Below, in pieces: positions 1,463-22,182 of a stretch of DNA of 27,829 bases. Source of the stretch: a virus; the IMG/VR virus record IMGVR_UViG_3300036832_000374, positions 1 to 27,829 of that record; one strand, given 5' to 3'. The number at the start of each line of letters is the position of its first letter. The first letter of the stretch is position 1. The notes under the pieces were generated by a model. That model did no database searches and had not been told where the DNA came from. It saw only the letters and a list, made by a program, of their open reading frames with translations. The position numbers were made by a program, and so were the translations under genes.

Positions 1463-1696
1463 ATGGCCAAGTTGACTGCGGCCCGCCGTAAGGCAATTCC
1501 GACCTCTCAGTTCGCCGGTCCGGACCGGTCCTATCCCATCATGGATAAAAGTCACGCACGCAACGCGTTATCCCGGGTGAGCCAGTACGGCAGTCCGGCT
1601 CTGATTGCCAAAGTGCGTGCGGCGGTGCATCGTAAGTATCCGTCGATCGGCAAGGAGGGCAAGTCGCGTTCATTCGGGAGCTTGATACATGACTAA
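1463..1696 (+). CDS. DUF6582-like small phage protein
   Basis: A 77-residue basic protein of a type common near phage structural genes. The pattern is an N-terminal MAKLTAARRKAIP, then F-A-G-P-x-R-S-Y-P-I-x-D-K-x-H-A-R (about residues 17-33), an Ala/Ser-rich helix and a basic C-terminus. This matches my memory of the family labelled DUF6582, whose function is unknown. GGGAGGAGGA at 1451-1460 gives a strong ribosome site just before the ATG. The last residues, FGSLIHD, match the ends of two nearby small proteins. Its end overlaps the next gene by eight bases, indicating coupled translation. Confidence 0.7.
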   Translation: MAKLTAARRKAIPTSQFAGPDRSYPIMDKSHARNALSRVSQYGSPALIAKVRAAVHRKYPSIGKEGKSRSFGSLIHD

Positions 1697-1912: not shown

Positions 1913-2116
1913 ATGCCGATCGTCTCGAAACAGCAAGCGCGTTTCATGTACGCCCATCAGGATGACCCCGGGCGGCTCGGAGATGTCGCCAAGGAATTCA
2001 TCCAAGCTAGCCCGCACGGCAAAGGTGCCTACAAGGGGCTGCCGAAGCGTGTGAAGGGTAGCAAGTCGACCCGCCAGAAAACCATGCGCCGGTTTGGCAC
2101 GCTCGCGATGGAGTAG
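1913..2116 (+). CDS. Small basic phage protein, SKQQARFM type
   Basis: A 67-residue, very basic protein beginning MPIVSKQQARFMYAHQ, then V-A-K-E-F-I-Q-A and a K-G-L-P-K-R-V-K segment. It resembles the common small phage proteins that start M-P-x-x-S-K-x-Q-x-R-F-M and contain x-K-E-F (some are labelled DUF3008), whose function is unknown. The ATG follows the previous stop by two bases, so translation is probably coupled. It ends in FGTLAME, the same tail type seen in the proteins at 1463 and 2121. The high positive charge suggests contact with DNA or with an acidic virion protein, but this is inference. Confidence 0.6.
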   Translation: MPIVSKQQARFMYAHQDDPGRLGDVAKEFIQASPHGKGAYKGLPKRVKGSKSTRQKTMRRFGTLAME

Positions 2117-2120
2117 CTAA

Positions 2121-2324
2121 TTGGCTCTGGAGCCGCCACCGCGGAAGATATCCAAGGCGGCAGCTGACTATGGCGAAGGTCTGCCGCAGGCACATTGCGG
2201 CATCTGCCAGCATTTCACCTCACCCAACAAATGCTCCGTCGTCATTGGGGCCGTTGCGTCAGAAGACTGGTGTAAGTACTTTGCGCGAGTGAAGCGGAAG
2301 TTCGGTTCGCTCAAGACGGAATAG
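2121..2324 (+). CDS. HiPIP-like four-cysteine small protein
   Basis: A 67-residue protein that begins with TTG, since no ATG is available and GGAG at 2110-2113 is well placed. Its cysteines are C26-G-I-C29, C38 and C51. The part from C38 follows the high-potential iron-sulfur protein signature C-x(6,9)-[LIVM]-x3-G-[YW]-C-x2-[FYW] except that the Gly is Asp (S-E-D-W-C-K-Y-F). Small HiPIP-like proteins of this kind occur, from memory, in alphaproteobacterial phages. The cysteines could hold a [4Fe-4S] cluster or a zinc ion. There is no export signal, unlike bacterial HiPIPs. It ends in FGSLKTE, the shared tail. Family assignment is moderate and cluster binding is inferred. Confidence 0.6.
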   Translation: MALEPPPRKISKAAADYGEGLPQAHCGICQHFTSPNKCSVVIGAVASEDWCKYFARVKRKFGSLKTE

Positions 2325-4035: not shown

Positions 4036-5594
4036 GTGAGCCGGTTTCCATCCTGAAGGCGACGCCGACCTACAAAGAACTGATGATGCGCTTTGCCAAT
4101 CGCGAGCGGCGCATGAACAGCATGTATGCCATCCTCAACGAGAGCGGCCAGATCGTGCCTTACCGGCGCCGGCCGGCACAGGCGCGCTATGCGGCCGAGC
4201 AATGGCTGCTCGACATCATCGTCAAGGCCCGGCAGATCGGCTTTTCGTCCGAAATCTCCATCGATATCGCCGACCAGTGCCTGTGGCGGCGCAATTTCAC
4301 CGCCGGCATCATCGACTACACGCTCGACGACGCGCGGCTGAAGCTGCAGAAGGTCCGGACGGCTTACATGGGCGCGCCAGAGCCTGTGCGGGAGGTGGTG
4401 CGGCTGGTGAAGGACAATGAGGAGGAGCTGAAGTGGTCGAATGGTTCGACATGCTATGTTGGGACCAGCCACCGCGGTGGTACGTTGCAGTACCTGCATA
4501 TATCCGAATTTGGCAAGATTGCCACGGACAAGCCCGACATCGCCCGCGAGATCATGACTGGTGCATTGAACACGATTGCGCCCGGGCAGAAGATCAAGAT
4601 CGAATCGACGGCGCATGGCACGTCTGGTTCGTTCTACGACATGGTGAGGAAGGCCGAGGCGAAGGCAAAGAGCGGCCAACCACTGTCACGGCTGGACTTC
4701 CGGCTGCATTTCTATGCGTGGTGGATGGACTCGAAATACGTTATTCAGCCCAATCTGGCGATCGTCTCTCAGGAAATGAGAGAATATTTCGATGGCCTGC
4801 GCGCCAAGCATGGCATCATGCTGACACCCGACCAGAAGGCTTGGTACGTTCTCAAGTATGAGATGCTCGGCCGCGACGACATGCATTCGGAATTTCCGAG
4901 TGCAATGGATGAGACGTTCTTCAACAGCATGGAAGGGACGTGGTTCAAGCGGGAGATGCAGAAGGCACGCGAGGAGCGGCGGATTGGCTACAACATTCCG
5001 CACGATCCCAACTATCTTGTGCAGACGTTCTGGGACATCGGGCTCGAGAACAAGAACAACCAGAACGCCATCTGGTTTCACCAGACGGATGGCACCCGGC
5101 ACCGGGTGATCGACTACTATGAGAATGTCGGCGAGGGCATCCAGCACTACGCGGCGAAAGTAAAGGAGATCGGCGCCAAGCGTGGCTTCACCTACGGCAA
5201 GCACTATGGTCCGCACGATATCGGGCATCGCAGCTGGGAGGATAACGCGCGCACGCGCAAGGAAATCGCCAAGGATTTGGGTATTGATTTCCAGATGGTG
5301 CCGCGGGTGCTCGACAAGGAGGACGCGATCGAGGCGCTGCGCAAGATGCTGAACCTGACGTGGGTTGATCAGGAGCATTGCGCGCGGCTGATCGAGTGCC
5401 TCGACAATTATCGCAAGACATGGTCGAAGCAGCTGGCGCAGTGGACCTCGGTGCCGCTGCACAACTGGGCGAGCAACGCCGCGGACGCCGGCATGACTGG
5501 CGCGGTGGGTTTGAAGCCGGGTGATATCGGGCTGGCGGACGGCAGCCGATCGAAGGGTCGGCGAGAAGTGAAGGGTTCACAATGGGCACAGTGA
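4032..5594 (+). CDS. terL: Phage terminase large subunit
   Basis: The 520-residue packaging motor: an N-terminal ATPase that drives DNA into the procapsid and a C-terminal RNase H-like nuclease that cuts genome units. Visible are an atypical Walker A loop at K65-ARQIGFSS-73, a Walker B strand at 154-159 (YLHISE, with E159 as catalytic Glu), and a nuclease half with F-W-D-I-G near 334, H-D-I-G-H and a C-terminal H-N-W-A-S-N-A-A-D-A segment near 480 whose Asp is typical of the metal site. Length fits the family. It starts at GTG in a GTGA overlap with the preceding winged-helix gene. The C-terminal tail is basic, as expected for portal or DNA contact. Confidence 0.9.
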   Translation: MSEPVSILKATPTYKELMMRFANRERRMNSMYAILNESGQIVPYRRRPAQARYAAEQWLLDIIVKARQIGFSSEISIDIADQCLWRRNFTAGIIDYTLDDARLKLQKVRTAYMGAPEPVREVVRLVKDNEEELKWSNGSTCYVGTSHRGGTLQYLHISEFGKIATDKPDIAREIMTGALNTIAPGQKIKIESTAHGTSGSFYDMVRKAEAKAKSGQPLSRLDFRLHFYAWWMDSKYVIQPNLAIVSQEMREYFDGLRAKHGIMLTPDQKAWYVLKYEMLGRDDMHSEFPSAMDETFFNSMEGTWFKREMQKAREERRIGYNIPHDPNYLVQTFWDIGLENKNNQNAIWFHQTDGTRHRVIDYYENVGEGIQHYAAKVKEIGAKRGFTYGKHYGPHDIGHRSWEDNARTRKEIAKDLGIDFQMVPRVLDKEDAIEALRKMLNLTWVDQEHCARLIECLDNYRKTWSKQLAQWTSVPLHNWASNAADAGMTGAVGLKPGDIGLADGSRSKGRREVKGSQWAQ

Positions 5595-6365: not shown

Positions 6366-8822
6366 ATGGCGCGAGCCGCTGATCAAATCCTTGATGATGT
6401 CACCTATTCGGATGTGACGCCGGGTGCCGAGAGTGACATGCGGTCATCTCAGGACGAGGGCGAGCGCAAGGCGGCAATTCCACTGTCGAAGAGAGACCCG
6501 AAGGCTCAATTTCTCATTCTGCGGGCCAACACCAATGCCGATCTCGAGTATTCGGCTAAATGGCGCCGACAGGCGACCGAAGACTTGGGATTTGTCGCTG
6601 GTGACCAGCTGTCGCGGGAAGACAAGCAGCTGCTGGACGAACAGGGGCGGCCACATATTGTCTTCAATCGTATCGAGACCATCCTGAAGGCGATTGCCGG
6701 CATGGAAATCAATGGCCGGCACGAGATCAACTTTATCCCGCGCAATAATGCTGACACCGCCAAGAACGAACTGCTCACCGCGGTCTCGAAATGGATGGGT
6801 GACGGCTGCGATGCCGAGGATGAGCAGTCCGAAGCATTTCAGCAAGCGATGAGTGCCGGTCTCGGGGTTTCGGAATGCCGCTATTCGTTCGAAAATGAGC
6901 CAGAGGGCTCATACATCGAGGAACAGATCGACTGCCGCGAGCTGGTGTGGGACCGCACCGCACGCAAGAAGAATTTGAGGGATGCGCGACGACTGGGACG
7001 GTTGCGCCGCATGCCACTGGGCGACGCTTTGCAGATGTTTCCCGGCAAGACCAAACTGCAGATCGATGCCCAGTGGGCCAATACGCAGTACCTCGACGAG
7101 GCGACGCTGAAGTCGATCGAGGAAAAACGCATCCGCGAGGAAAACACCGCGCTCTGGGAGGACTATGACGATCGCAACGAGGTGACGGTCGTTGTCATTC
7201 AGTGGCGGGAGCGCGAGCCATACTGGCGCGTTGCCGATGTGGCCAGCAATACCATCCAAGACTATACCGAGCCGCAATACAGCAAGATCAGCGGACGGTT
7301 GAAGGCGATCGGCAAGCGAGTGGGCGCTAATGTCGCCATCCACGCCCGCAAGGCTTTCCGCTGGCGTTATTATCAGGCGTTTCTGGGTGCCGACGCATTG
7401 CTGGAAGCCGTTCAGCCGGCGCCATGCGGCAATCAGTACTCGTGGGGCATAATCACGGGCGCCTTCGATGCCAAGACACGGCAGTGGTATGGGCTGGTGC
7501 GGGTGATGCGTGACCCGCAGATGTGGGCCAACAAGTTTATGTCGCAGATCATGCAGATCATGAACGCCACGGCGAAAGGCGGCATCTTGGCGGAGGCTGA
7601 TGCCTTCGACGATCAGCGTGAGGCGGAAGAGACCTATGCGATGCCGGAGGGCATCACGTGGATGTCGCCCGGCGCGCTGTCCGGCCAGAAGCCGAAGATC
7701 ATGCCAAAGCCCGGGCAGGGCGACCCCAGCGCCTACGTCAATCTTCTGACCTATGCGGTGAGTTCGATCACCGCGGTGACCGGCATCAATCTGGAGTTGC
7801 TCGGTCAGCAGGACCAGCAGCAGCCGGGCATTGTCGAACACATGCGCAAGCAGGCCGGCATGACGGTGCTGGCGACCATGTTCGATTCGCTGCGTGGTTT
7901 CCTGAAGATCGTCGGCCGCAAGCGGCTGTATTTCATCCAGACGCGCGTTGCGGATGGCACCATGGTGCGGGTAGCCGGCCCCGAATATGCCGGCGTAGTG
8001 CAGGTAACCAAGGACAAGACGACTGGCACCTATGATGTTGTGGTCGACGATGCGCCGACCAGCCCGAACATGAAGGAAGCCAACTGGGCGATCATGCAGC
8101 CGATGCTGACGCTGTTCAAAGACCAGCTGGCGGCCCAGCCAGAGCTGTTATTGCTGGCGCTGGAATACTCGCCGCTGCCGACGCCATTCGTCGACGCCAT
8201 GAAGAAGGCTTTGGCGAAGGCACAGGCCAGCGACCCGGGCCAGCAGCAATGGCAGGAGAGCATGAAGCAGCTGGCGATTTCCAAGCTGACGGCGGAGATC
8301 AACAAGGACCAGAGCATTGCGGAGATGAACAATGCCAAGGCTGGCGCCACCAGCTCGACCGCGACCTATGATCTGGCAATGGCGCAGAATCTGCTGGCGA
8401 AGAACGACATTCAGGGATTCGAGCATCACATCTCGGCGATGAGCGAAGCGGCAAAGGCCGAGCTCAACAAGGCCAAGGCGGCGCATGCCATCGTACTGGC
8501 GCACAAGGACGCACAGCAGGTTGGCATCGATGCGCAGCAGCACGGCAGCAACATGATGAGCGATGCTACCGACCGGGCCGTGGCCCGCCATGGCGCTGCG
8601 GTCGACACCGCGGGCGCGGCAGTAGACCATCACAGTGCATTGACCGATCGTATTCATGCCCATCTCGCTGCGCGCCAGCAGCAGATCGAGGCGCTGCAGG
8701 CGGCAGGTGACCAGCAGCTGACTGCTCAGCAGCTGCAACAGCAGGATGAGCACAACAGGCGTACTAGCGATATTGCCAGAATGGCGGCAACTCAGCCGCC
8801 GCCAGAACCAGAGACCCCATGA
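6366..8822 (+). CDS. P22-like portal protein
   Basis: An 818-residue portal subunit; twelve form the ring through which DNA is packaged and ejected. The N-terminal region has the P22-family pattern: W-R-R-Q-A-T-E-D-L-G-F-V-A-G-D-Q-W/L, then G-R-P-H-I-V-F-N-R-I, I-A-G-M-E-I-N-G-R, and later I-T-A-V-T-G-I-N-L-E-L-L-G with Q-Q-P-G-I-V-E. The last 180 residues are helical and rich in Gln, Ala and His (Q-Q-Q-I-E-A-L-Q-A-A), like the C-terminal barrel of P22 portal, and bring it above the usual 700-odd residues. It begins one base after the previous stop and overlaps the next gene by ATGA. P22-type portal with N4-type capsid is a known combination. Confidence 0.88.
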   Translation: MARAADQILDDVTYSDVTPGAESDMRSSQDEGERKAAIPLSKRDPKAQFLILRANTNADLEYSAKWRRQATEDLGFVAGDQLSREDKQLLDEQGRPHIVFNRIETILKAIAGMEINGRHEINFIPRNNADTAKNELLTAVSKWMGDGCDAEDEQSEAFQQAMSAGLGVSECRYSFENEPEGSYIEEQIDCRELVWDRTARKKNLRDARRLGRLRRMPLGDALQMFPGKTKLQIDAQWANTQYLDEATLKSIEEKRIREENTALWEDYDDRNEVTVVVIQWREREPYWRVADVASNTIQDYTEPQYSKISGRLKAIGKRVGANVAIHARKAFRWRYYQAFLGADALLEAVQPAPCGNQYSWGIITGAFDAKTRQWYGLVRVMRDPQMWANKFMSQIMQIMNATAKGGILAEADAFDDQREAEETYAMPEGITWMSPGALSGQKPKIMPKPGQGDPSAYVNLLTYAVSSITAVTGINLELLGQQDQQQPGIVEHMRKQAGMTVLATMFDSLRGFLKIVGRKRLYFIQTRVADGTMVRVAGPEYAGVVQVTKDKTTGTYDVVVDDAPTSPNMKEANWAIMQPMLTLFKDQLAAQPELLLLALEYSPLPTPFVDAMKKALAKAQASDPGQQQWQESMKQLAISKLTAEINKDQSIAEMNNAKAGATSSTATYDLAMAQNLLAKNDIQGFEHHISAMSEAAKAELNKAKAAHAIVLAHKDAQQVGIDAQQHGSNMMSDATDRAVARHGAAVDTAGAAVDHHSALTDRIHAHLAARQQQIEALQAAGDQQLTAQQLQQQDEHNRRTSDIARMAATQPPPEPETP

Positions 8823-9208
8823 TTTCGGCGAGACATGCGCTGCTACGGCAGGCGCAACAATATTTCCATATGCATCTGCTCGGTGTCGTTAGATGGGATG
8901 ACGTCATCGTCGACAAGCCGATTCCGATTCCGCCCGTGCGGGGAAACCGGGAGCAGGGCAAGTTCAAGGACATCGTGGTAACGCACTTCAATGGTTTTCG
9001 GATGGAACTGATCGGGCCATTCGAGAGTGATGAGCCGCTGGGCCTGATCAAACTAAGTCGCGGAGATAATTGGTTCGAGGGAACGCTGGACGCGGTAACT
9101 TGGTCTCGGGCCGCGGACTTCATCAAGCGACATAAACAGCAGGGAGCCGACCATGGCACCGAAAGCACAACCACTACCACTGGAGCCGGAGACGATTGGG
9201 GACGTTGA
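8819..9208 (+). CDS. Hypothetical protein between portal and scaffold
   Basis: A 129-residue protein, basic at the N-terminus (MISARHALLRQAQQYF) with beta-rich middle (DIVVTHFNGFRMELIGPF, LGLIKLSRGDNWFEGTLDAV) and a helix (WSRAADFIKRHKQQ). I know no family for it. It starts in an ATGA overlap with the portal stop. Its final 18 residues, Thr/Gly-rich and probably disordered, are encoded in a 56-base overlap with the scaffold candidate, an unusually long overlap for this window. The tight coupling on both sides suggests it is needed with portal and scaffold in a set ratio, for instance as a portal-binding or nucleation factor. That role is inference. Confidence 0.55.
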   Translation: MISARHALLRQAQQYFHMHLLGVVRWDDVIVDKPIPIPPVRGNREQGKFKDIVVTHFNGFRMELIGPFESDEPLGLIKLSRGDNWFEGTLDAVTWSRAADFIKRHKQQGADHGTESTTTTTGAGDDWGR

Positions 9209-10439
9209 GGAAGGAACGCCGCCGCCGGAGTCGGAAGTCGACGATCTCGGACTGACACCAGACGAGCGCACGGCCTTCGACGGCATGAGGGAGGCCGACA
9301 GAGGCCTTCCGGAGGCTCCAGAGAGCGATGAACCGGAGCCGGCTGCCGACACCCCGGCCGGGGTCGACAGGCCCACCCTTGAGGCTCCGCCCGCTCCTGT
9401 GGAGGCAAAGAAACCGCCTGCTCCGGCGCCCGAGGAGGACGAGGAGCCGGATACGGTCGTTACCGACCCCCGGACCGGCAAGCAACAGCGCACCATTTCG
9501 TTCGGCAAGCACCAGCGGCTGCTCAACAAGGCCCGGCAGGATGCCGAGGCACTGCGCTCTGCGGCCGAGGAAGGCCGGGTTAATCAGGCCAAGTTGGCGG
9601 AGCGGCTGGCCATTCTCAACGAGGCGCTGACGACGGCGCCTCCGCCACAGCCACGGACGCCACAGGAAGAGGAGCATTTACGCCAGCAGGAAATCGCGCA
9701 GAACCCGCTGCTGGAGGATACCATCGACCCGTCGATCGATCTGGCAGGGTCGATCGCGCAGCTGCAGCGGCGTCAGGTCTTCATGGCCAATGCGTCGTTC
9801 TCCCAGCAAGAGGCGACACAGGAGCAATTGGCCGATCAGACGATGCTCCGCGACTTCAGCCGTGACACGGCAGCTTATGCGACGACGCAGGAGGGTGAGC
9901 ATTTCTTCGGTCCGGACGGCGCCTATCAGTATCTCAAGAACAGCCGTCTCGTGGAGCTCGGCATCGCGCTGTTCGACAAAGACCCGACCGACCCGAACGA
10001 GCAATTCACGCAAGCCGAGATCAACAAGATGATTTCGGACTTCAACGTCGAGGAGAAGTGGGTCGTCAACAATGCTCTGACGGCGGGCAAGTCGCCAGCC
10101 AAGGCGATTATGCGGCTGGCCAAGGGGCGTGGTTGGAAGGCGCCGTCAGCACAGCAAGCTGCAGCTGGTACCCAGCAGGCGAAACCGGCACAACCGAGCG
10201 CCCGGCGAGTGCCTCCGCCCATGCCCACCCCCAGTGCGGTCAGGCAGTTGCAGGCAGAACAGGCCGGCGCGGCAGCTTCGCGGTCGCTGTCGGACGGTGG
10301 CGGCGCTCCTCCCGGCGAGCCCCTTTCGATGGAGCAATTGCTGAAGATGAATGATGACGAATTTGGCATATACATCGACAATCTGCCGCCCGCACGGCTG
10401 CAGGCATTGATGGGCCGGGAATTTCCGGGGCGCGGCTGA
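9153..10439 (+). CDS. Scaffolding protein candidate
   Basis: A 428-residue protein placed between portal and major capsid gene, the usual site of the scaffold. Residues 1-110 are acidic and Pro-rich (PLPLEPETIGDVEEG, APAPEEDEEPD) and likely disordered. Residues 115-240 are strongly helical with coiled-coil character (LLNKARQDAEALRSAAEEG, LAERLAILNEAL). Residues 240-330 are mixed. The C-terminal 100 residues contain a Gln/Ala/Pro linker and a final acidic helix (SMEQLLKMNDDEFGIYIDNL), which resembles capsid-binding ends of scaffolds. GGGAG precedes the ATG at 9153. The scaffold call rests on position, charge and helical layout, not on a firm family match. Confidence 0.65.
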   Translation: MAPKAQPLPLEPETIGDVEEGTPPPESEVDDLGLTPDERTAFDGMREADRGLPEAPESDEPEPAADTPAGVDRPTLEAPPAPVEAKKPPAPAPEEDEEPDTVVTDPRTGKQQRTISFGKHQRLLNKARQDAEALRSAAEEGRVNQAKLAERLAILNEALTTAPPPQPRTPQEEEHLRQQEIAQNPLLEDTIDPSIDLAGSIAQLQRRQVFMANASFSQQEATQEQLADQTMLRDFSRDTAAYATTQEGEHFFGPDGAYQYLKNSRLVELGIALFDKDPTDPNEQFTQAEINKMISDFNVEEKWVVNNALTAGKSPAKAIMRLAKGRGWKAPSAQQAAAGTQQAKPAQPSARRVPPPMPTPSAVRQLQAEQAGAAASRSLSDGGGAPPGEPLSMEQLLKMNDDEFGIYIDNLPPARLQALMGREFPGRG

Positions 10440-10697: not shown

Positions 10698-10888
10698 GAT
10701 ATTAAGAGGTTACCGGGTAATATGCTGAACCCGTAAGCTTGAGGCTTTGAAGTCAGCCTGTTTTGTGGGTGATCGGAAAACCCTCCCGCCCTCTGCAGTG
10801 GGGCGCTTATAAACAGTCTGCACCCATGCATATCGCAAACTGCGCCGCGGCCCCCTATGGGGCCGGGCCATCTTCGCAGGGGTGCCAA
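10698..10888 (+). other. Non-coding leader before HNH gene, with hairpins
   Basis: A 191-base stretch without convincing genes. It holds a strong hairpin, CGGCCCC 10848-10854 with GGGGCCG 10859-10865 and a CTAT loop, 24 bases before the chosen HNH start. A weaker stem, AGGCT 10742-10746 with AGCCT 10755-10759, is followed by GTTTTG and could be a poor terminator. A third weak stem pairs 10714-10718 with 10729-10733. I see no convincing -35/-10 pair. The segment probably arrived with the endonuclease gene, since neighbours on either side are tightly packed. Confidence 0.45.
10848..10865 (+). promoter_or_regulatory. GC hairpin upstream of HNH start
   Basis: Seven perfect G-C pairs with a four-base CTAT loop, ending 13 bases before the AGGGG ribosome site (10878-10882) of the HNH gene. 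No T-run follows, so it is more likely to damp translation or block exonucleases than to end transcription. Confidence 0.4.
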
Positions 10889-11401
10889 GTGGCGTCCGTT
10901 CCACGACTTGAGCGGCTGAACGAATTGTTCCGTTATGACCCCGAAACCGGGCATCTCATACGGCGCATTTCGACGTCGTCGCGCGCTCGGGAGGGGACAA
11001 GGGCTGGGTACCTGCACGAAGCGAGTGGGTACCTATGGGTTAATGTCGACAGCACTCCCTATCGGCAGCATCTCCTCATCTGGCTTATGGTTTATGGCGA
11101 ATGGTGTCCTCGCCTGATCGATCATTCCGATCGCGACCGAAGCAACAACCGCCTCGGTAACCTCCGAAAAGCGACCGAATCTCAGCAGCACCAAAATGCT
11201 GGTTTGCGCCGCGACAATATGTCGGGGGAGCGCGGTGTCCGTCAACATGCCTGTGGGAAATACACTGCCAGACTGTATGTCGACGGTCGAGAAACGCATC
11301 TGGGCTTGTTTGATACGCTGGAAGAAGCCGCTGAGGTCGCGCGGTTGGCGCGCCAGACGCATTATGGCGCCTTTGCGCCACTCTACGACAGAGCGAGGTA
11401 A
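10889..11401 (+). CDS. HNH endonuclease with AP2-like DNA-binding domain
   Basis: A 170-residue free-standing homing-type nuclease. The first 100 residues end in the HNH metal/active site, I-D-H-S-D-R-D-R-S-N-N-R-L-G-N-L-R, which matches the family's 'IDHxNxDxxDNRxxNLR'. The C-terminus is an AP2-like module: G-V-R-Q-H, K-Y-T-A-R-L-Y-V-D-G-R-E-T-H-L-G-L-F-D followed by an A-x-x-A helix. I chose GTG at 10889 because AGGGG lies six bases upstream and the protein then begins V-P-R-L-E-R-L-N-E-L-F-x-Y-D-P-E-T-G, the usual N-terminus; the frame is open back to a TTG at 10763. It sits between scaffold and capsid genes without breaking either. The gene is selfish and not needed for assembly. Confidence 0.85.
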   Translation: MASVPRLERLNELFRYDPETGHLIRRISTSSRAREGTRAGYLHEASGYLWVNVDSTPYRQHLLIWLMVYGEWCPRLIDHSDRDRSNNRLGNLRKATESQQHQNAGLRRDNMSGERGVRQHACGKYTARLYVDGRETHLGLFDTLEEAAEVARLARQTHYGAFAPLYDRAR

Positions 11402-11407
11402 AGCGCC

Positions 11408-12523
11408 ATGTCAACTACAAGCTTTCCGGTTAACGATTCAATGGCCGTCAAGTTGTGGTCGCGAGTACTCGACTACGAGGCTCTCAAATACACGGCGATC
11501 GCACCTTTGATTGGCGACGATGAAAATTCCATCATTCACATGCAGGATGCATTCACGAAAGGCCCGGGTGACGCCATCACCTATGCCATCGTGATGCAGC
11601 TGGCGCAGGCTGGTTTCTCGGAAAACCAGCTGGCCGAGGGCAACGGTGAAGCACTCACCACCTATTCCGATCAGCTTGTGATCAACGAGCTGATGGCGGT
11701 GGCTGGCGTCAAATCCCGGCGCACCATCGACCAGCAGCGTGTGCCATGGGACTTGCGCAACACGGCGAAGGGCCGTCTCGGCGACTGGTACGCCAAGCGT
11801 TATTCAGTGGCTTTCTTCAACCAAGTCTGCAGCTACAATGTCCAGACCGATGTTCGCTACACCGGCCTCAATCCAACGACCTTGGTATCGCCGACCCGTA
11901 TCATCCGGCAGTCTAATCGGGCGAGCGATGATCTTCTGGTCGCTGGTGACACGTTTACTCTCGACATGATCGACAAGGCGAAGGAATTGGCGATCACTGC
12001 GACGCCGATGATTCGGCCGATACGCATCAAGGGCAACAATGGTCCGCGAGGACAGGGCCGCAGCGACTTCGGCAATACGCTGGAGGATATGTACTGCGCC
12101 TACCTGCATCCGTACCAAGTCACGGCAGTTCGCCGCAACACCTCGACCGGTCAGTTCATCGATATCCAGAAGGCGGCATCGATGGGCCGGCAGGATACCG
12201 GCAACCGCATCTTTTCCGGTGCCATCGGCATGTACAACTCGACCATCCTGCGCTCGGCTTACGACGTCACGGATGGTGTGTCTGCAGCCAACGTCGATGT
12301 GCCGACCGTGCGGCGCGCGGTGTTCCTCGGCGGACAGGCGGCGATGATGGGGTTCGGCCGCGACAACAGCCCGAACAAGCTGACGTGGAACGAGGAACTG
12401 TTCGACCACAAGCGGCGCCTTGAGATTTCTGCGCTGACCATCCACGGGATCAAGAAGACCCGCTACAACAACGTCGACTACGGCACCATCGTGATGTCGA
12501 CTTACGCGGCGCCTGCGACCTAA
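11408..12523 (+). CDS. Major capsid protein, N4-gp56 family
   Basis: A 371-residue shell protein. The N4-gp56 family pattern is clear: an N-terminal A-V-K-L-W-S-R, D-x-x-T-Y-A-I-V-M-Q-L, the N-E-L-M-A-V-A-G-V segment, the R-Q-G-x-R-x-D-F-G-N region, Y-C-A-Y-L-H-P-Y-Q-V, and the C-terminal signature D-H-K-R-R-L-E-I followed by G-I-K-K-T-R-Y and D-Y-G-T-I-V. Length is close to the family norm. The fold is HK97-like. The gene lies six bases after the HNH stop, and a GAGG in the end of that gene may act as ribosome site. The decoration candidate follows at once. Confidence 0.92.
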   Translation: MSTTSFPVNDSMAVKLWSRVLDYEALKYTAIAPLIGDDENSIIHMQDAFTKGPGDAITYAIVMQLAQAGFSENQLAEGNGEALTTYSDQLVINELMAVAGVKSRRTIDQQRVPWDLRNTAKGRLGDWYAKRYSVAFFNQVCSYNVQTDVRYTGLNPTTLVSPTRIIRQSNRASDDLLVAGDTFTLDMIDKAKELAITATPMIRPIRIKGNNGPRGQGRSDFGNTLEDMYCAYLHPYQVTAVRRNTSTGQFIDIQKAASMGRQDTGNRIFSGAIGMYNSTILRSAYDVTDGVSAANVDVPTVRRAVFLGGQAAMMGFGRDNSPNKLTWNEELFDHKRRLEISALTIHGIKKTRYNNVDYGTIVMSTYAAPAT

Positions 12524-14245: not shown

Positions 14246-15979
14246 ATGGCGAAGGTTGGCAAGCTCATTTCGTTTCCAGATTATGCGCCGGACGTCACGC
14301 CGCTCGGGACGGCGGATTCGCAGACGATATACAATGTGGTGCCACGCGGCGACGGCTACGGACCGGTGCCGAGCCTGCAACAGTTCACGAACGCACTGCC
14401 GGGACCATGCCGCGGCTATTTCTTTGGACGCAAGACGGATGGTTCGATAGCCATCTTTGCCGGCACCGCCACCGATCTCTATTTGCTCAACAATGCCAAT
14501 TTTCAGTGGGTATTGGCGTCGAAGGGCGGCATTTCCTACGGGGCTCTGCCGTCGACGGACAACTGGTCATTCGCGCAGTTCAATGATCTCATCATCGCCT
14601 GCCAAGCCAATACGGTGCCGCAGAAGTTCATTCTGACGACCGCATCGAACTTTATCGATCTTGGCGGCTCGCCGCCGCAGGCAGGCTCGATATCGGTCAT
14701 CGGCTTCTTTGTTGTTCTGAGCGCGCTGACATCCAATCAGCGGCGGGCGCAATGGAGCGATCTTGATGCGCCAGAGATATGGGCGGCAGGGTCTGGACTG
14801 TCTGACTTTCAGGACTTCCCCGATGGCGGGTCATGCATCGCATCGAGCGGTGGCGACGCCTATGGATTGATTTTTCAGGAGCAGTCGATCAGATCGATGA
14901 CCTATGCCGCCGGCAATCCGGCAATCTTCCAATTCTATCGCTTCTCGACGCAGGAAGCGCTATTCGGCAAGTACTCCATCATCAACATCGGCAATCTTGT
15001 CTTCTACATATCGGCTACTGGCTTCAAGCAGATTCTGAGTACCGGCGACCCGACACCGATCGGTAAGGAGAAGATCGACCGGACGTTTTTCAACGACGCC
15101 GACAAGGGCAATCTGCAGCTTGTGCTCGGCGCATCCGACCCGTCATCGACGCGAGTCTACTGGGCCTACAAGAGCCTGTCCGGAAGTGCGGGGCTGTTCG
15201 ATCGTATCCTCGTCTACGACTATGCTCTCAACAAGTGGACGAGAGTTAACCTTTACGGCGAGTTCATCGCGACGCTGGCCAAGCCGGGAGTATCGCTTGA
15301 ACAGCTGGATGCGGTTGCGCCACAGCAGCTGCTTGTCACCAATGCCCTTGCATCCCCGGTTACGCCGTTGATTCGGCTGACGCTGACGGCAACCTCCAAC
15401 AGCTACTTCAACATCGCCGGCCAGAATTTCATCGTGGTGCAGGGCATCATCGGAACCGGCGGCTTGACTGCGGCGGCCAACGGAACATGGAAGGTCAACA
15501 TCATCGACTCGACACATATCGATCTGATCGGTTCGACTTTTGTCGGGGTCTACACTTCTGGCGGGGCCATCGGTGGCTCGTTAGATGCACTCGGCTTCTC
15601 GCTCGACAGCGTTGCCAAATCCAGCATTGCGCAGCTGTCGGCATTCGACAACACCCACTCGCTCGGGTTTTTCAATGGGCCGACCTTGGAGGCGCTGCTC
15701 GAGACGCCTGACGCAGATGGCGAAGGCCAATATCTCTTCACTGATATCATCATGCCGATCACTGATGCGACACAGGTCTATTGCTCGGTGGGATGGCGCA
15801 ACAGTCCGCAAGGACTGCCGCAGTACACCAAGGAGCAGATCGTCGATGATCAGGGGCAGGCCTGCTTCAATCCGATCGAGAGCCGCTATCAGCGTGGCCG
15901 GGTGCGGATTGTTGCGGGCTCGGCATGGACATTCATCCGCGGCATTCAACCCAACACGCAGCTGGCGGGAGACCGTTGA
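14246..15979 (+). CDS. Tail hub / gp10-like protein with FCCH-like insert
   Basis: A 577-residue protein starting directly after the adaptor stop. Repeated beta-blade-like segments (G-R-K-T-D-G-S-I-A-I-F-A-G-T, W-S-F-A-Q-F-N-D-L-I-I-A, I-G-N-L-V-F-Y-I-S-A-T-G-F, D-R-I-L-V-Y-D-Y-A-L-N-K-W-T-R-V) suggest a propeller, as in P22 gp10, the hub that stabilises packaged DNA. At about residues 375-450 an inserted beta module occurs (N-G-T-W-K-V-N-I-I-D-S-T-H-I-D-L-I-G-S-T-F), the pattern often labelled 'ubiquitin-activating E1 FCCH-like' in phage proteins; here it carries no ubiquitin meaning. The C-terminus closes with R-G-R-V-R-I-V-A-G-S-A-W-T-F-I-R-G-I. The gp10 link is from position and fold pattern. 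Confidence 0.6.
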   Translation: MAKVGKLISFPDYAPDVTPLGTADSQTIYNVVPRGDGYGPVPSLQQFTNALPGPCRGYFFGRKTDGSIAIFAGTATDLYLLNNANFQWVLASKGGISYGALPSTDNWSFAQFNDLIIACQANTVPQKFILTTASNFIDLGGSPPQAGSISVIGFFVVLSALTSNQRRAQWSDLDAPEIWAAGSGLSDFQDFPDGGSCIASSGGDAYGLIFQEQSIRSMTYAAGNPAIFQFYRFSTQEALFGKYSIINIGNLVFYISATGFKQILSTGDPTPIGKEKIDRTFFNDADKGNLQLVLGASDPSSTRVYWAYKSLSGSAGLFDRILVYDYALNKWTRVNLYGEFIATLAKPGVSLEQLDAVAPQQLLVTNALASPVTPLIRLTLTATSNSYFNIAGQNFIVVQGIIGTGGLTAAANGTWKVNIIDSTHIDLIGSTFVGVYTSGGAIGGSLDALGFSLDSVAKSSIAQLSAFDNTHSLGFFNGPTLEALLETPDADGEGQYLFTDIIMPITDATQVYCSVGWRNSPQGLPQYTKEQIVDDQGQACFNPIESRYQRGRVRIVAGSAWTFIRGIQPNTQLAGDR

Positions 15980-17928
15980 TGCCCGGATTCGGCAGCCTCA
16001 TGCCTCTGCTCGACGAGTCGCCGACGTGGCTGAAGAGCGCCTTGCAGGGGTCGCGCGCGGTCGGCAGTAGCGGGGTCGGATTCGGTTCGATGGCACCTGC
16101 TGCCGCTGAAGATGAGCAGAAGTTACGGGATGTCGCCGACTTGCCGGAACAGCAGCCATACTATGACCCGGCGACGGGTCTGCAACTGGCTGGCGGCAGA
16201 GGTGCCAAATATCAGTCACCGCAACCGAAGAAGCAGCCCACTTATACGATGGAGCCCGATCTTACCCAGCAGCAGATGGGCGTTGGACCGGAGGGCGGCT
16301 CGGATGCGCCGAACCCCTATCCGCCCGGCACCGAGGAATCGGACTACTTCGAACGATCGCGGACGGAAGGCCTGCCGCAAGTGCGACGTCCGGGCGTGCT
16401 GCCGGTCGCCAAGACGCCCGAAGGCTATACGCTGGCAGTGCCGAAAGCCGCCGAGCTCGCTCAGTACATCATGGGCGGTCCGGCGATCGAGGCGAAGGCG
16501 GGCGAGGCTGTGCTCGGCGCGGGCATGGCGCGTGTCAAGAGGGCGGCAGCTGCCCGGGCGAAGGTCGCCGAAGAGACGCCACCTCCTCCCATTGGACATA
16601 ATCAACCCCCTCAAAATGTCCAAGGACAAAATGTACCCCCTCAAAATGTCCAGATGGATGAGTTCCAGCCAGTGCGCCCGGAGACGCGGACGGCGCAAGA
16701 GATTGCATATCCACCGCCGCCGAAACCGGTCGGCGATCGCAGCAAGTTCGTCGATGCGTCCGGCAATGCCATCGAAGGCGCGGCTTATACCAAGGAGGCC
16801 CGCCGCATCCTTGATGAGATCGCCGCCGGTCCGAAGGGCGCGGGGCCGATCGATCTGACAAAACCGACGACGCTGCCTCCCGTGCCGCAGGTTGATCTGC
16901 CGCGTTATGCGCCACCGCGAGGTGTCTCGCCTCGGCTGCAGGATGCTCTGAACAATCCGGAGGTGCTCGACGGGCTTCGCCAAGGCATCAGGAATGGCAT
17001 GGAGATGGGCGCCCACAACTGGTACGTCAACGATGCCGTCCGGGATGCCTTCGTCAAGGAGCTCGGACCGGTGAAGGGACAGTCTGAGTTCGAGCGCATG
17101 ATGGACAATGTCGCTGCGACCTCGCCGCGTTCTGATGTGCCGACCAATGTGCGAAATGCATCCTACTATTTCGCTCATGCGACGCCTGCCGATTTGCCGG
17201 ACAAGAATCCCTATCCTTATGGACACATTGCGCAGAAGCTGCACCGGCAGAATATCGAAACGATCAGCAGCGAAGGCGGATGGGAGCCGCTGCAGAATCC
17301 GAAGCCGGCGTCATTCGCACAGAATCTCAAAGGCAACTACGAGCCTGTCACCGCTGATACGCACGCCTTCCGTGCGATCGGCATGCGAACGGAAGACCCG
17401 CGGTTCTTGGAGCCATCGGTCAGTGCGGTGTACAAGGCCGGCGGTGACCCGGCAACGGATACGTTGGTTGGCAAGTACGGAGAAATTTCAAAGAACAAGA
17501 AGGGTCAGGATATTGTGACGTTCAGACCCAGACAGCTATTCGATAGCGGCAAGCTAACGATGGAGGATGCGAAAAAGATTCCATATTTCTGGGCAACCAA
17601 GCCTAAGGAAAACGAATATGCCGCAGTGGAGCAACTCTACAAGCAGTTGGCGGCGGAGCATGGCCTGACGCCGGCTGGCGCGCAGGCTGCAGGATGGGCG
17701 GGTTCGGGCGAACTCACCGGGCTCGGAACGGTGCCGACGCATACCTTCCCGGAGCTCCTCAACGAGCGTATCCTTTTCACTGCCAAGATGCGCGGCGAGA
17801 ACCCGGCGACGACGCTGAAGAATTTCATCCGCGGCAAGAAGCCACTGCTCTCTACCGCACTGACCGCTGGCGCCGGGGCCGCGGGAGCTGCAGCGCTTTC
17901 GAAGCCATCGGATGAGGAGCGGCAATAG
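15979..17928 (+). CDS. Internal virion protein with DNA-glycosylase-like domain
   Basis: A 649-residue protein starting in a TGATG overlap with GGGAG upstream (an earlier in-frame ATG at 15925 lacks support). Residues 1-130 are Pro/Gly/Gln-rich after a distinctive MPGFGSLMPLLDE start; 150-200 are Ala-rich helix; 206-225 are a tandem GHNQPPQNVQ repeat; 230-320 are linker. The folded part, about 345-620, includes N-W-Y-V-N-D-A-V-R (347-355), V-A-A-T-S-P-R-S-D-V-P-T-N-V-R-N-A-S-Y-Y-F (378-398) and V-T-A-D-T-H-A-F-R (457-465). The last resembles the catalytic Asp strand of HhH-GPD DNA glycosylases, and a related phage domain is, I believe, known as DUF7178. It ends in a hydrophobic AGAGAAGAAA helix. 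Ejection with DNA is inferred. Confidence 0.6.
   Translation: MPGFGSLMPLLDESPTWLKSALQGSRAVGSSGVGFGSMAPAAAEDEQKLRDVADLPEQQPYYDPATGLQLAGGRGAKYQSPQPKKQPTYTMEPDLTQQQMGVGPEGGSDAPNPYPPGTEESDYFERSRTEGLPQVRRPGVLPVAKTPEGYTLAVPKAAELAQYIMGGPAIEAKAGEAVLGAGMARVKRAAAARAKVAEETPPPPIGHNQPPQNVQGQNVPPQNVQMDEFQPVRPETRTAQEIAYPPPPKPVGDRSKFVDASGNAIEGAAYTKEARRILDEIAAGPKGAGPIDLTKPTTLPPVPQVDLPRYAPPRGVSPRLQDALNNPEVLDGLRQGIRNGMEMGAHNWYVNDAVRDAFVKELGPVKGQSEFERMMDNVAATSPRSDVPTNVRNASYYFAHATPADLPDKNPYPYGHIAQKLHRQNIETISSEGGWEPLQNPKPASFAQNLKGNYEPVTADTHAFRAIGMRTEDPRFLEPSVSAVYKAGGDPATDTLVGKYGEISKNKKGQDIVTFRPRQLFDSGKLTMEDAKKIPYFWATKPKENEYAAVEQLYKQLAAEHGLTPAGAQAAGWAGSGELTGLGTVPTHTFPELLNERILFTAKMRGENPATTLKNFIRGKKPLLSTALTAGAGAAGAAALSKPSDEERQ
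16594..16653 (+). repeat. 30-bp tandem duplication in coding region
   Basis: Two adjacent 30-base units (16594-16623 and 16624-16653) match at 26 of 30 positions and encode GHNQPPQNVQ and GQNVPPQNVQ. Each starts GGACA and contains CCCCCTCAAAATGTCCA, so the junction also forms the inverted repeat TGTCC-AA-GGACA. The stretch is richer in A and in C-runs than its surroundings. Confidence 0.75.
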
Positions 17929-20900
17929 ATGGCTGGCTTTGGCACCATCGCACCCGGACTGGACGATGATGCCGCTCGCGAGCTGCTGGCTCGTTATCCG
18001 GTGTCGGATACTCCCGCTTCATTCCCACCAGTACCGTCCGCGTCAGCCTCCGAAAATGAGCAGCCCGACTGGAGGGAACGCGAGGCAGAAGCCGGCCTTG
18101 CCGCGAGCCGGCCGAGTGGGGTTTCCACCATGTGGCAGGCGATAAAGCATCCCTCGCTTTACCCTATGTATAAGGCGATGACGGCTCCGCGGGAGGAGCC
18201 TGCGCCGGAAGCCTCCGCGAATCTGCCTGATGCTGGGCCTCCGCTGATCCCGTCGGGGCCACAGATATCCGCCGGCACAAGGATCGGCAGCGCTCTTTCC
18301 CAGAACCTTCCGGAAGCCGTCTTTGGGTCGCTCAAGAGCGGCGTCACCGCACCCGGGGAGGCATTGTCCGGCAAGCTACCAATGTACACCCCTGAGGGCA
18401 CTCTGAACCCGGATGTGGTGGGACGCGCCTTGGACATTGCCGCGCTCGCTGGCGGAGGTTCAGTAGCAGGGACGGCCGAGCGTGCCGCGGCTCGAGCACC
18501 GGGTGACTTCCGTGTCATGGGTCGGCAGCTATTCTCGGACACTGGCAAGCCGGCTGCTGCTGCGGCTGTTGCCGCGCATGCTCCGCAGTACACCACGAGC
18601 ATCGAGGGTGCGCTCGATCGCATTCCGTCTCAGGTATTGACCGGCGACCAGTTCGCCAATCAGCTCAAGCGCTATGGTGCCAAGCCGGAGGAGATGGCCC
18701 ATCGCGACGTCAACGACCTGTTGGTGGGACAGCCTTTAGTCACTAAGGCCCAGATTAGGCAGCATCTGGCGGACAATCCGGTCGAACTCAGGCCGATCGA
18801 GCGTGCAGTTAAGCCATGGGAGGAGCTCACCTCGGAGCAGCAATATAAAATTGCCGACATGCACATGGAGAACCGGCCCCACATTGAGGAGGACAATCCA
18901 AGGGATTACTACAACCGGCTCGTCGAGGAGAATGCAACGTTGTTCGGGGATGCTCCGGTATACCAGCAGTACACCGTGCCCGGCGGTGAGAACTACCGCG
19001 AGCGGCTGATGCAGCTGCCTATGACTGGAAAAGGAGATGCGACAGGCGCGGCAGACTTCGCCAAGCAAATGCGTGAAAAGTACGGCGACCGGTGGGTTGG
19101 CGAACTAACACCAGCGGAAAACGCTAGGTACGATGCATTAATTGAAGCTAGTCCAAAAGAGAGTGAAGTTTTCAAAGGCGGTCATTGGGAGGAGCCTAAC
19201 GTCCTGTTCCATCGTCGCTCCACCGACCGAAACTTCGAGGAGCCGCTCACACAAGATCAAATCTACAACAATCAGGCGCGTGACTTCGCCATCAACGAGT
19301 CTAATTCGATTCAAGACCAGATGGGTGAGATCGGACGCCAGATTAACCGAACTCGTATGCCGATCGAGGCGGCGCGTCGGGAGCAGATTTTTAGCGATAT
19401 GCGTGCTGGTAAGATCACTCCCCCAGAGGCTCAGCGCAGATTCGATGAAGTGCCTGATATTCCTGAGCTGAAGCCGCTGCAGGACAAGCTGCAGGAGTTG
19501 CGTGCCTATCAAGACAGGGTTCATCGGGAGATTCCGGACAAGGTAGAGCCGCAGAAAACCCTGAGCCTACACGACGAAGAAAACCAGAGCGACTGGCATC
19601 AGCAGGGCCGCGAGAAGGGATATGGGTCGGCCGTGCCGCCAGACTGGCAGGTGCGCAAATATCCGGAGAACCCGGACTATTGGCAAATCTATAGCGGCAA
19701 CCGCACCATCGCCGACGTCCCGGTGGGGGTCGCGTCAAATGAGCGGGAAGCGCTGTCGATGGCGGCGCGGCAGAAGGGATTAACTGATATCCCAGACGCG
19801 CCGTTCAAGGGCACCGGCTGGGAGAGGCTGGCGCTGCATGACCAGCTGCGCGAGGCTGCCGAGAAGGGATATCCGCGTATCTCATGGACGGCCGGCGAGG
19901 AGAACCCGACCAATCCAATGGTTATGATGCGTGGACGGTCATTGGATGAGCTGCCAGCAGCGCGACAAGCCGAGATACTGAGGGCTGATAAAGGTATCAA
20001 GGATTACTACAACAGACGTCGCGTCGATCAGGCCAACAAGATCGGCAAGGCACATGGTGTTCAGGTTCAGCGCGGCGCGCTTCCCAATCAGATTCCGGCC
20101 TACTACATGGATATTCCGGACAGCCTTCGCAAAGAGCTGCTGTCCAAGCCAATGAGCCTGTTCTCGGACACAGGCGAAGCAGCCAAGGCAGCCGCAGTGG
20201 CGGAACATCTTCCGGCTGAACAAACTGGCGCCCAAAATGCAAGGTATGCAGACTGGCACGCAGCACTGGAAGGAAGAGAAAATGTCCCCGCGCAAGACGT
20301 TCACCCGACAGCAACTGGAGAAGGAGCTGGGGCAGCCCCGGCAGCCCCAGCACCCGGAGATAATGTCCCCGGAGGAGCTGGAGGAAGAGACGCGGGGCTG
20401 GAACAGGCACAGATATCAGCAGAGCGCGCCGCCGGGCGCCATCTCCCGCTCCCGGGACTTCCCCAAAAAGCCCTCCCGGTAGGTGATCGGCTCTACATTC
20501 CCGGGCCAATAGGCAAGATCAAGGACGTTGCCGAAAGCTATATGCGCGATCGGCCGCAGCCGACCTATCACCTGTCGCCTGATCAATATCATCCAGTAGA
20601 CCCCGAGCACTCCAAAGCCATTGCGCAGGCCTTCGAGGACATGCCGCATGCGCCGGACGACCCGGCAGTGAAAAACTCCTATGCGGCGATGATCAAGGAG
20701 ACGCGCGACCAGTATGATCACATCCGCGCTCAGCATCCCGAGCTGCAAATCGAGGCGAACAAGCCCGGTGAAGACCCCTATGCGGCGACACCGCGGCTGG
20801 CAGCGAGGGATGTCGCGGAAAACAATCATTTTTCGTTCTTTCCGACCCAAGAAGGTTTTGGCACTGGCGAGCAGGGTGGCATCGATATGGCGACGCATCC

Positions 20901-22182
20901 GATGATGCAGCCATCGGGCAGGACGCTGAATGGCAAGCCGCTGCTCAACAACGATCTGTTCCGCATCGTTCATGACTACTTCGGGCACTTGAAGGAGGGC
21001 TACGGTTTTCGCGCTGCGGGCGAGGACAATGCATGGCGATCGCATGCGGCGATGTATTCCGATCTGGCGCGACCGGCGATGACGAGCGAGACGCGCGGCC
21101 AGAACAGCTGGGTAAATTATGGTCCGCATGCCGAGGCTAATCGCGGGGCATCGGCGGCCGACACGATATACACCGACCAGAAAGTCGGCCTGATGCCGGA
21201 GTGGACGATGCGCGATCGCGGCAGTCCAGAGCCGATCATCACCTATCAAGGCTCACCGAGCGGGCATTCGATGGTCGATATGTCGAAAATCGGCAGCGGT
21301 GAGGGGTCAGCCGCTCGTGGGCAGGGCATGTACAGCGCGGAAGCCGAGCCGATCGGGAAGGCTTATCGGATTATGACTGCGGTACGGCAAGACCCGTTGC
21401 TGAAAAAATATAGGTTAAACGAGCGCGATACCAATTCTATGGCTCGCGATCTGGCTGATACCGAAGGTGATCATGGTCCGGTTGTCGAGGACTTACGGGA
21501 CCATATTGAAAACATGAAGGCTAGGCTGGGCGATGGAACCTTAAGTGATGTTCAGGCAGCGGAGACCCGGAGCCAGATCGACAGATCACAAAGGATGATT
21601 CGCTATCTCAACGATTCCAACCGGGCGAAGGGACATCTGTATCAGCTCGCGCTCGACCGGCCGATGGAGCATTTCCTGCACTGGGATAAACCGTTCAGTG
21701 AGCAATCGGACTATGTGAAGCAGAAGCTGCAGCCGATGCTCGACGAGCGAACACCAGTCATTCAACAGGCGCGCGCGCATCTGCTGGCACGAACGCAAGA
21801 GCGGCTCGCGCAGTTGCCGCCGGGTGTCAAGAACCAGAGACTGGAAGCCGATCTGCAGCGCTATTCCCAGCCTGTCGACTGGACGAATACGCCCGGCGAG
21901 AAGCTCTATGGGGTGGCGGCCCATTCCGCGCTGGGACGGGCGGCGAAAGACGCGGAAGAAGCATATCCGGTCGCAAGCCAGTATCTGCGCGCCAGAGGAA
22001 TCGCCGGCATCAGGTATCTCGCCGGGCAAAACTTCAACCTTCCACGCGGCGTTCTGGCAGGCAGCCATAACTATGTTTCATTCACTGCGCCGCGCATCCT
22101 GAAGCGCTATGCCATTCCGGGCGCGATTGGCGCAGGCGCTGCTGGTGCAGCCGCAAGTCAGCGAGGTGAAAATGGCTCGTAG
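17929..22182 (+). CDS. 1417-aa polyvalent virion protein with ART-like domain
   Basis: The largest protein here. (a) MAGFGTIAPGLDD start and Pro/Ala-rich N-terminus. (b) Residues 215-750: the large phage module with V-L-T-G-D-Q-F, P-G-G-E-N-Y-R-E (near 350), Q-S-D-W-H-Q (553-558), I-P-D-A-P-F (621-626), I-S-W-T-A-G (651-656) and a closing S-L-F-S-D (743-747). (c) Low-complexity linker 750-850. (d) Residues 860-1090: F-R-I-V-H-D-Y-F-G-H (H1015, H1020), H1039 and S-E-T-R-G-Q-N-S-W (E1054), a likely metal site. (e) Residues 1105-1390: ART-PolyVal-like, with Y-Q-G-S-P, S-K-I-G-S-G-E-G, G-M-Y-S-A-E (1133-1138) and W-D-K-P-F-S-E-Q (1252-1259). (f) Glycine-zipper C-terminus. Polyvalent proteins are thought to be injected to act on the host; that role is inferred here. 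Confidence 0.75.
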   Translation: MAGFGTIAPGLDDDAARELLARYPVSDTPASFPPVPSASASENEQPDWREREAEAGLAASRPSGVSTMWQAIKHPSLYPMYKAMTAPREEPAPEASANLPDAGPPLIPSGPQISAGTRIGSALSQNLPEAVFGSLKSGVTAPGEALSGKLPMYTPEGTLNPDVVGRALDIAALAGGGSVAGTAERAAARAPGDFRVMGRQLFSDTGKPAAAAAVAAHAPQYTTSIEGALDRIPSQVLTGDQFANQLKRYGAKPEEMAHRDVNDLLVGQPLVTKAQIRQHLADNPVELRPIERAVKPWEELTSEQQYKIADMHMENRPHIEEDNPRDYYNRLVEENATLFGDAPVYQQYTVPGGENYRERLMQLPMTGKGDATGAADFAKQMREKYGDRWVGELTPAENARYDALIEASPKESEVFKGGHWEEPNVLFHRRSTDRNFEEPLTQDQIYNNQARDFAINESNSIQDQMGEIGRQINRTRMPIEAARREQIFSDMRAGKITPPEAQRRFDEVPDIPELKPLQDKLQELRAYQDRVHREIPDKVEPQKTLSLHDEENQSDWHQQGREKGYGSAVPPDWQVRKYPENPDYWQIYSGNRTIADVPVGVASNEREALSMAARQKGLTDIPDAPFKGTGWERLALHDQLREAAEKGYPRISWTAGEENPTNPMVMMRGRSLDELPAARQAEILRADKGIKDYYNRRRVDQANKIGKAHGVQVQRGALPNQIPAYYMDIPDSLRKELLSKPMSLFSDTGEAAKAAAVAEHLPAEQTGAQNARYADWHAALEGRENVPAQDVHPTATGEGAGAAPAAPAPGDNVPGGAGGRDAGLEQAQISAERAAGRHLPLPGLPQKALPVGDRLYIPGPIGKIKDVAESYMRDRPQPTYHLSPDQYHPVDPEHSKAIAQAFEDMPHAPDDPAVKNSYAAMIKETRDQYDHIRAQHPELQIEANKPGEDPYAATPRLAARDVAENNHFSFFPTQEGFGTGEQGGIDMATHPMMQPSGRTLNGKPLLNNDLFRIVHDYFGHLKEGYGFRAAGEDNAWRSHAAMYSDLARPAMTSETRGQNSWVNYGPHAEANRGASAADTIYTDQKVGLMPEWTMRDRGSPEPIITYQGSPSGHSMVDMSKIGSGEGSAARGQGMYSAEAEPIGKAYRIMTAVRQDPLLKKYRLNERDTNSMARDLADTEGDHGPVVEDLRDHIENMKARLGDGTLSDVQAAETRSQIDRSQRMIRYLNDSNRAKGHLYQLALDRPMEHFLHWDKPFSEQSDYVKQKLQPMLDERTPVIQQARAHLLARTQERLAQLPPGVKNQRLEADLQRYSQPVDWTNTPGEKLYGVAAHSALGRAAKDAEEAYPVASQYLRARGIAGIRYLAGQNFNLPRGVLAGSHNYVSFTAPRILKRYAIPGAIGAGAAGAAASQRGENGS
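20282..20482 (+). CDS. Possible overlapping gene in another frame
   Basis: A 66-codon frame nested inside the 1417-aa gene, shifted relative to it. The product (MSPRKTFTRQQLEKELG, then MSPEELEEETRGW and a basic RSRDFPKKPSR end) is charged and protein-like. AAGGAAGAG lies about seven bases before the ATG. By hand only 7 of about 66 codons end in A or T, the usual mark of real coding in this GC-rich DNA, while the host frame here is a Gly/Ala/Pro linker with many codons ending in A. I know no family. It could be a real nested gene, or a former separate gene swallowed when two domains were fused by a linker. Needs conservation data to decide. Confidence 0.3.
   Translation: MSPRKTFTRQQLEKELGQPRQPQHPEIMSPEELEEETRGWNRHRYQQSAPPGAISRSRDFPKKPSR

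Follow-up and report, generated by a model that had tools for sequence, protein, structure and literature searches.

A recurrent terminal tag on exchangeable effector-type proteins of a soil phage lineage, most likely a label for loading into the virion

Two giant proteins encoded in tandem in a phage genome begin with the same short terminal tag, [F/W]-G-[S/T]-[L/I/M]-[A/M]-P. Related phages have it at the N-terminus, the C-terminus, or both ends of giant proteins with shuffled domains, and of small, unrelated proteins encoded elsewhere in the genome. In this soil-phage group, the tag most likely serves to sort a varying set of effectors into the particle, which would deliver them into bacteria. 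The window, meaning the whole stretch of DNA that was analysed, is a linear phage record from IMG/VR (IMGVR_UViG_3300036832_000374) of 27,829 nucleotides and is probably a fragment. All window features described below are on the + strand.

The first giant protein has 649 aa (15979..17928) and starts at the stop codon of the upstream hub gene (14246-15979), with a further in-frame ATG upstream at 15925. The second has 1417 aa (17929..22182). Both reading frames are open end to end. Their starts, MPGFGSLMPLLDE and MAGFGTIAPGLDD, contain the tags MPGFGSLMP (15979..16005) and MAGFGTIAP (17929..17955), both of which recur in relatives, and a second copy, FGSMAP, is found at residues 35–40 of the 649-aa protein (16081..16098). 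None of 50,000 composition-preserving shuffles of residues 2–14 matched the observed ungapped score, which bears out the shared start described in an earlier, sequence-only reading of this DNA. Residues 15–60 of the two proteins do not align (1903 of 3000 shuffles). The shared end claimed in the same reading holds but is weaker than the start: in a local alignment of the final 30 residues, 1 of 3,000 shuffles reached the observed score. The cores between these ends are unrelated, as had been proposed, with a local score of 57 that falls inside the range of 20 shuffles (40–64). The letters T-P-E-G, which had been described as a shared motif followed by an Ala/Gly-rich helix, do occur in both proteins, but the 53-residue stretch is not significant (346 of 3000 shuffles), and TPEG was rejected as a shared element because it does not rise above chance.

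The C-terminal part is better described as two elements than as the single shared end first proposed: a Gly/Ala-rich hydrophobic segment and a terminal FGSL tag. In the 649-aa protein, the segment and its polar tail SKPSDEERQ (17848..17925) align with the ends of relatives. The segment and tail of the 1417-aa protein (22099..22179) align with ends that read FGSLAQRDQ (L039) and FGSMAREDQ (L057). The hydrophobic segment is also present on untagged core relatives, and the C-terminal FGSL tag is kept in relatives and lost or altered in both window proteins. The last 21–23 residues of both structure models have low confidence, with a pLDDT of about 30 at the C-terminal segment of the 649-aa protein, as would be expected of a flexible end. 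A further N-terminal piece, LPDVGxPLxxPGP, follows the tag on different cores (L108 56-, L120 3538-, L057 5427-, window 17929-).

A search for the same ends on unrelated cores found that they recur. The termini were not unique to these two genes, and their alignment did not fail when corrected for composition. The strict motif has 31 distinct occurrences in the fetched loci, 22 following a start codon and eight within 63 residues of a stop, which leaves the extra copy at residues 35–40 of the 649-aa protein. FG[ST][LIM] was observed 16 times within six residues of an N-terminus, compared to 1.0 by shuffling, and 14 times within 12 residues of a C-terminus, compared to 2.0, although six of the latter come from a truncated hub fragment or from the C-termini of capsid proteins. 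In twelve related records, the tag pattern gave 10 matches and a reversed control gave none. A scan of 2.9 million viral contigs for M[PA]GFG[ST]LAP returned 16 stretches, and nearly all of those inspected start tagged ORFs of the same lineage. Raw match counts exceed the number of independent cases because near-identical stretches of one phage (L001-L005, L007, L008) were recovered from several metagenomes. Proteins tagged at both ends were identified in six loci (L039, L057, L060, L076, L017, and L238), and a second type of end, ...GIRG, closes several tagged proteins (six observed, 0.04 by shuffling). No tagged relatives were found among the deposited phages examined, and the 649-aa protein had no relatives when used as a single-protein query against viral contigs. 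Constant ends around exchangeable centres, the layout originally suggested, are strongly supported, since the ends reappear both on cores with other domain combinations and on small proteins unrelated to them.

The small tagged proteins are encoded away from the giant genes, near the terminase, both in the window and in other phages, including a phage with no giant gene in its slot. Three are found in the window: a 77-aa protein with a weak DUF6582 match that ends in FGSLIHD (1463..1696), a 67-aa protein that ends in FGTLAME (1913..2116), and a 67-aa Cys-rich protein that ends in FGSLKTE (2121..2324) and has related proteins without the tag. An 80-aa protein of the same type as the first, from another phage (L317), ends in FGSLAPSDGDGDE, and relatives of the second end in FGSIGIRH, FGSIGARREK, and FGSLAPHDNGHELGVESGDY. 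Relatives in one small family end short of the point at which the window protein adds its tag. A 106-aa window protein (428-748) contains AFGALGG, perhaps a decayed tag, and a proline-rich ORF in a similar context in L317 (2783-3199) contains AQPFGSLAPG. The window also encodes a 200-aa proline-rich protein made of AHPI[VY][IL]PP-like repeats (771-1373). In L092, three different genes between portal and capsid (1798-2349, 4784-5557, and 8213-9493) have ends in or near FGSLAP, with four copies in total.

Domain searches, structure models, and relatives were used to characterize the cores, which appear from sequence to be polyvalent-type effectors with a DNA-glycosylase-like fold, a phrog_3170 domain, and an ART-PolyVal-like domain. 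The core of the 649-aa protein (module D; 16819..17838) matches DUF7178 and phrog_3842 (E 7e-11 and 6e-10) and probably has an HhH-GPD DNA-glycosylase-like fold. The model of this core (pLDDT 82) gave VIA-align 2 Z scores of 8.8 and 8.7 to 8-oxoguanine glycosylases, the higher to 8-oxoguanine DNA glycosylase 3n0u (183 residues, rmsd 3.9), with MutY next at 5.1–5.8, in agreement with its earlier description as glycosylase-like. Foldseek returned no match under 0.001 for this model and no significant match for either model. An invariant Lys and Asp in the module D alignment are 18 residues apart (K162 and D180 of the model), a spacing that we take to be that of the Ogg2 catalytic pair.

The 1417-aa protein consists of module A (residues 45–784; 18061..20280), module B (residues 825–1096; 20401..21216), which is phrog_3170 with a conserved HDYFGH...ETRGQNSW, and module C (residues 1097–1390; 21217..22098), which is ART-PolyVal-like by homology. 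The ART-like assignment made earlier for this end stands only through relatives and has no direct match in the window protein: L010, L039, L057, and L060 match PF18760 below the curated cut-off, L010 and L060 just below it. L039 also has a clear LPD23 domain (E 3e-23). In the window proteins themselves, no domain of the published set (ART-PolyVal and LPDs) was matched directly, and a sequence search of solved structures gave nothing useful for either core. The top VIA-align 2 row for the B-C model was the cyanophage A4 pre-ejectosome 9k3a (Z 6.4, 141 residues, rmsd 6.2). This likeness is suggestive of an ejected protein but was set aside because it is within the range of common arrangements.

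Modules were found in several combinations (A alone, B-C, B-D, A-B-D, E-B-C, and a fused B-D-C), and tagged arrangements include tag-A (a free-standing tagged protein in both L001 and L006), tag-B-C, tag-D, tag-E-B-C, and tag-A-B-D. Modules A–D recombine across relatives, so that the two window proteins take their domains from a single effector pool. The B-D-C fusion, a 1878-aa protein with the ART-PolyVal-like module (L010 7565-13201), has no tags, and the PF13252 capsid was not found in that record. A D-type gene in L009 (4017-5809) is apparently split into two ORFs, of which the first has the tag and the second the core.

Sequence comparisons indicate that the tag follows the capsid lineage and not the core. 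The window encodes a P22-like portal protein (6366..8822; E 2e-94), a PF13252 major capsid protein (11408..12523) related to solved phage capsids, whose presence tracks that of the tag, and the tail hub or nozzle protein, which is related to solved nozzle proteins. Giant genes occupy a slot directly downstream of the hub gene and ahead of an S74-type tail gene. The slot is filled by the two giant genes in the window and encodes no (L047, L055, and L069), one, or more giant proteins in relatives. Proteins with B or D modules in the hub/capsid lineage are nearly all tagged, the exceptions being the middle ORF of L009/L107 and the more distant L071 and L168, which have no clear tag. No complete core homologue outside this lineage had an end tag, as would be expected if the ends are a separate targeting part. 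In the same search, 34 outside records without PF13252 had no end tag and four records with PF13252 were tagged; outside records may be fragments, which makes absence in any single one weak but not the overall pattern. A gene-level count of tags inside and outside the lineage was not significant, since most genes have no tag in either group; the valid comparison is the one matched by core.

We put a probability of roughly two in three on the tag being a short linear sorting label for incorporation into the virion and ejection with the DNA, with exchangeable polyvalent effectors behind it. That the proteins are packaged, dock to a partner, are ejected, and act on the host as effectors is inferred. 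The tag, located in a flexible protein end, would dock to a lineage-specific part of the virion and so mark proteins for building into the particle and later ejection. The cargo would be effectors from the one optional slot after the hub gene, together with the small proteins whose genes lie near the terminase. What the tag docks to is a guess; the likeliest candidates are the inside surface of the capsid, placed first because similar peptides bind encapsulin shells through a hydrophobic-Gly-hydrophobic core (PMC7925596), and, second, the scaffold. Tags at both ends would perhaps add grip on a repeating lattice. Consistent with loading, tagged giant genes sit inside the virion gene block, and the ART-PolyVal-like and LPD23 domains of relatives were defined from polyvalent proteins that are predicted to be injected (PMC5512222). 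Arguing against it, the candidate ejection proteins downstream (24572 and 26593) lack the tag, so that some ejected proteins would go unmarked; neither window protein has the C-terminal tag, and the L071 and L168 proteins mentioned above come from the slot itself.

The best reading by analogy is that the tag would work like the T4 capsid-targeting sequence (CTS) and the P1 DarB signal, and it resembles encapsulin targeting peptides. The T4 CTS is a short N-terminal peptide, constant on differing mature proteins, that directs them to the head, and 10 residues are sufficient (PMC9026906). Like the CTS, the phage tag is one short end peptide on otherwise unrelated proteins. The CTS is a propeptide that is cut off by the head protease, and it is N-terminal, whereas the tag is also found at C-termini. 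One protease family, Peptidase_S78 (PF04586), is absent from eight records of the capsid lineage, seven of them tagged, and inspection identified no conserved L/I-x-E cleavage site. In P1, the injected protein DarB is likewise very large and has a signal at its N-terminus; with 30 residues of this signal, a reporter enters the capsid (PMC9024508). That signal belongs to one myophage protein, whereas the motif described here is carried at either end of many proteins, and the portal of its phage lineage is P22-like.

Encapsulin targeting peptides such as PLTVGSLRRGG, DGSLGIGSLKG, and NTGGDLGIRK have a hydrophobic-Gly-Ser-Leu or Leu-Gly-Ile-Arg core (PMC7925596), and an N-terminal TVGSL peptide is known (PMC8346489). 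The phage tag is likewise terminal with an FGSL core, and GIRG C-termini are also present, although the common core is just three to four residues and the similarity falls short of showing homology in tag or pocket. Encapsulins are non-viral shells and are encoded without tail, portal, or terminase genes; the tagged phage, by contrast, has genes for portal, capsid, and hub in one and the same window. That the tag is an encapsulin-like loading peptide docking inside the phage capsid is, in our view, doubtful. The genes of polyvalent proteins, effectors that combine several domains of which ART-PolyVal and LPD domains are examples, lie beside virion genes, and packaging of these proteins was deduced from context (Iyer et al. 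2017, PMC5512222). As in those, single polypeptides here combine several domains of different predicted activity (A, B, and C in the 1417-aa protein; B-D-C in L010). The sections of that paper considered here describe no common terminal tag.

The tag may instead act after delivery or during infection, by binding a host protein or membrane, or by binding a tail or portal part of the ejection channel and not the capsid interior. Such a role would fit the hydrophobic Gly/Ala-rich segment that often precedes the C-terminal tag, and a slot that adjoins the tail hub gene and begins at its stop codon. A host-binding motif should be independent of capsid type, however, and core homologues in other phages are untagged while tag presence tracks the capsid lineage, which disfavours binding to the host; small proteins encoded far from the hub are tagged as well. 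We consider an infection-stage role unlikely.

Two further explanations would require no function of the tag as a peptide. The ends could be remnants of shared descent, copied between neighbours by recombination or gene conversion during core swaps, given that tagged genes are in tandem in a mosaic slot and share other N-terminal pieces such as LPDVGxPLxxPGP. Alternatively, a DNA element that acts in recombination or translation initiation could encode FGSLAP incidentally, since several tags overlap the hub stop codon at a TGATG junction. Agreement between tag pairs was 0.89, 0.92, and 0.42 at codon positions 1, 2, and 3, respectively. Variation at third positions indicates selection on the protein, and agreement of only 42% there disfavours both a DNA signal and recent copying. 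The presence of the same motif at C-termini and on unrelated small proteins, and flanking linkers that do not align, also argue against remnants, which we regard as improbable. For a DNA element, synonymous variation and the codon-position result amount to a near refutation, and C-terminal copies sit directly before stop codons, which leaves it with very little credibility.

Injected phage effectors are known, and their entry into the particle is usually inferred from gene position. If the tag is a virion-loading label, sequence would be enough to recognize the cargo across the lineage, down to small proteins whose genes lie far from those of the tail. Such a tag could also be attached to other proteins to direct them into phage heads. 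The likeness to encapsulin peptides is a testable link between phage heads and bacterial nanocompartments. If the tag is indeed an encapsulin-like loading peptide, encapsulin cargo loading would have a living counterpart, or its origin, in tailed phages, and any protein of this lineage that ends in FGSLAP or GIRG could be predicted as virion cargo.

Two observations were made at the capsid gene of the window. An ORF (10763-11401) between the scaffold candidate (9153-10439) and the capsid gene resembles an HNH homing endonuclease. The C-terminus of the capsid protein (12470-12523) is DYGTIVMST, which resembles the FGTI of the tag, by possible mimicry or by chance.
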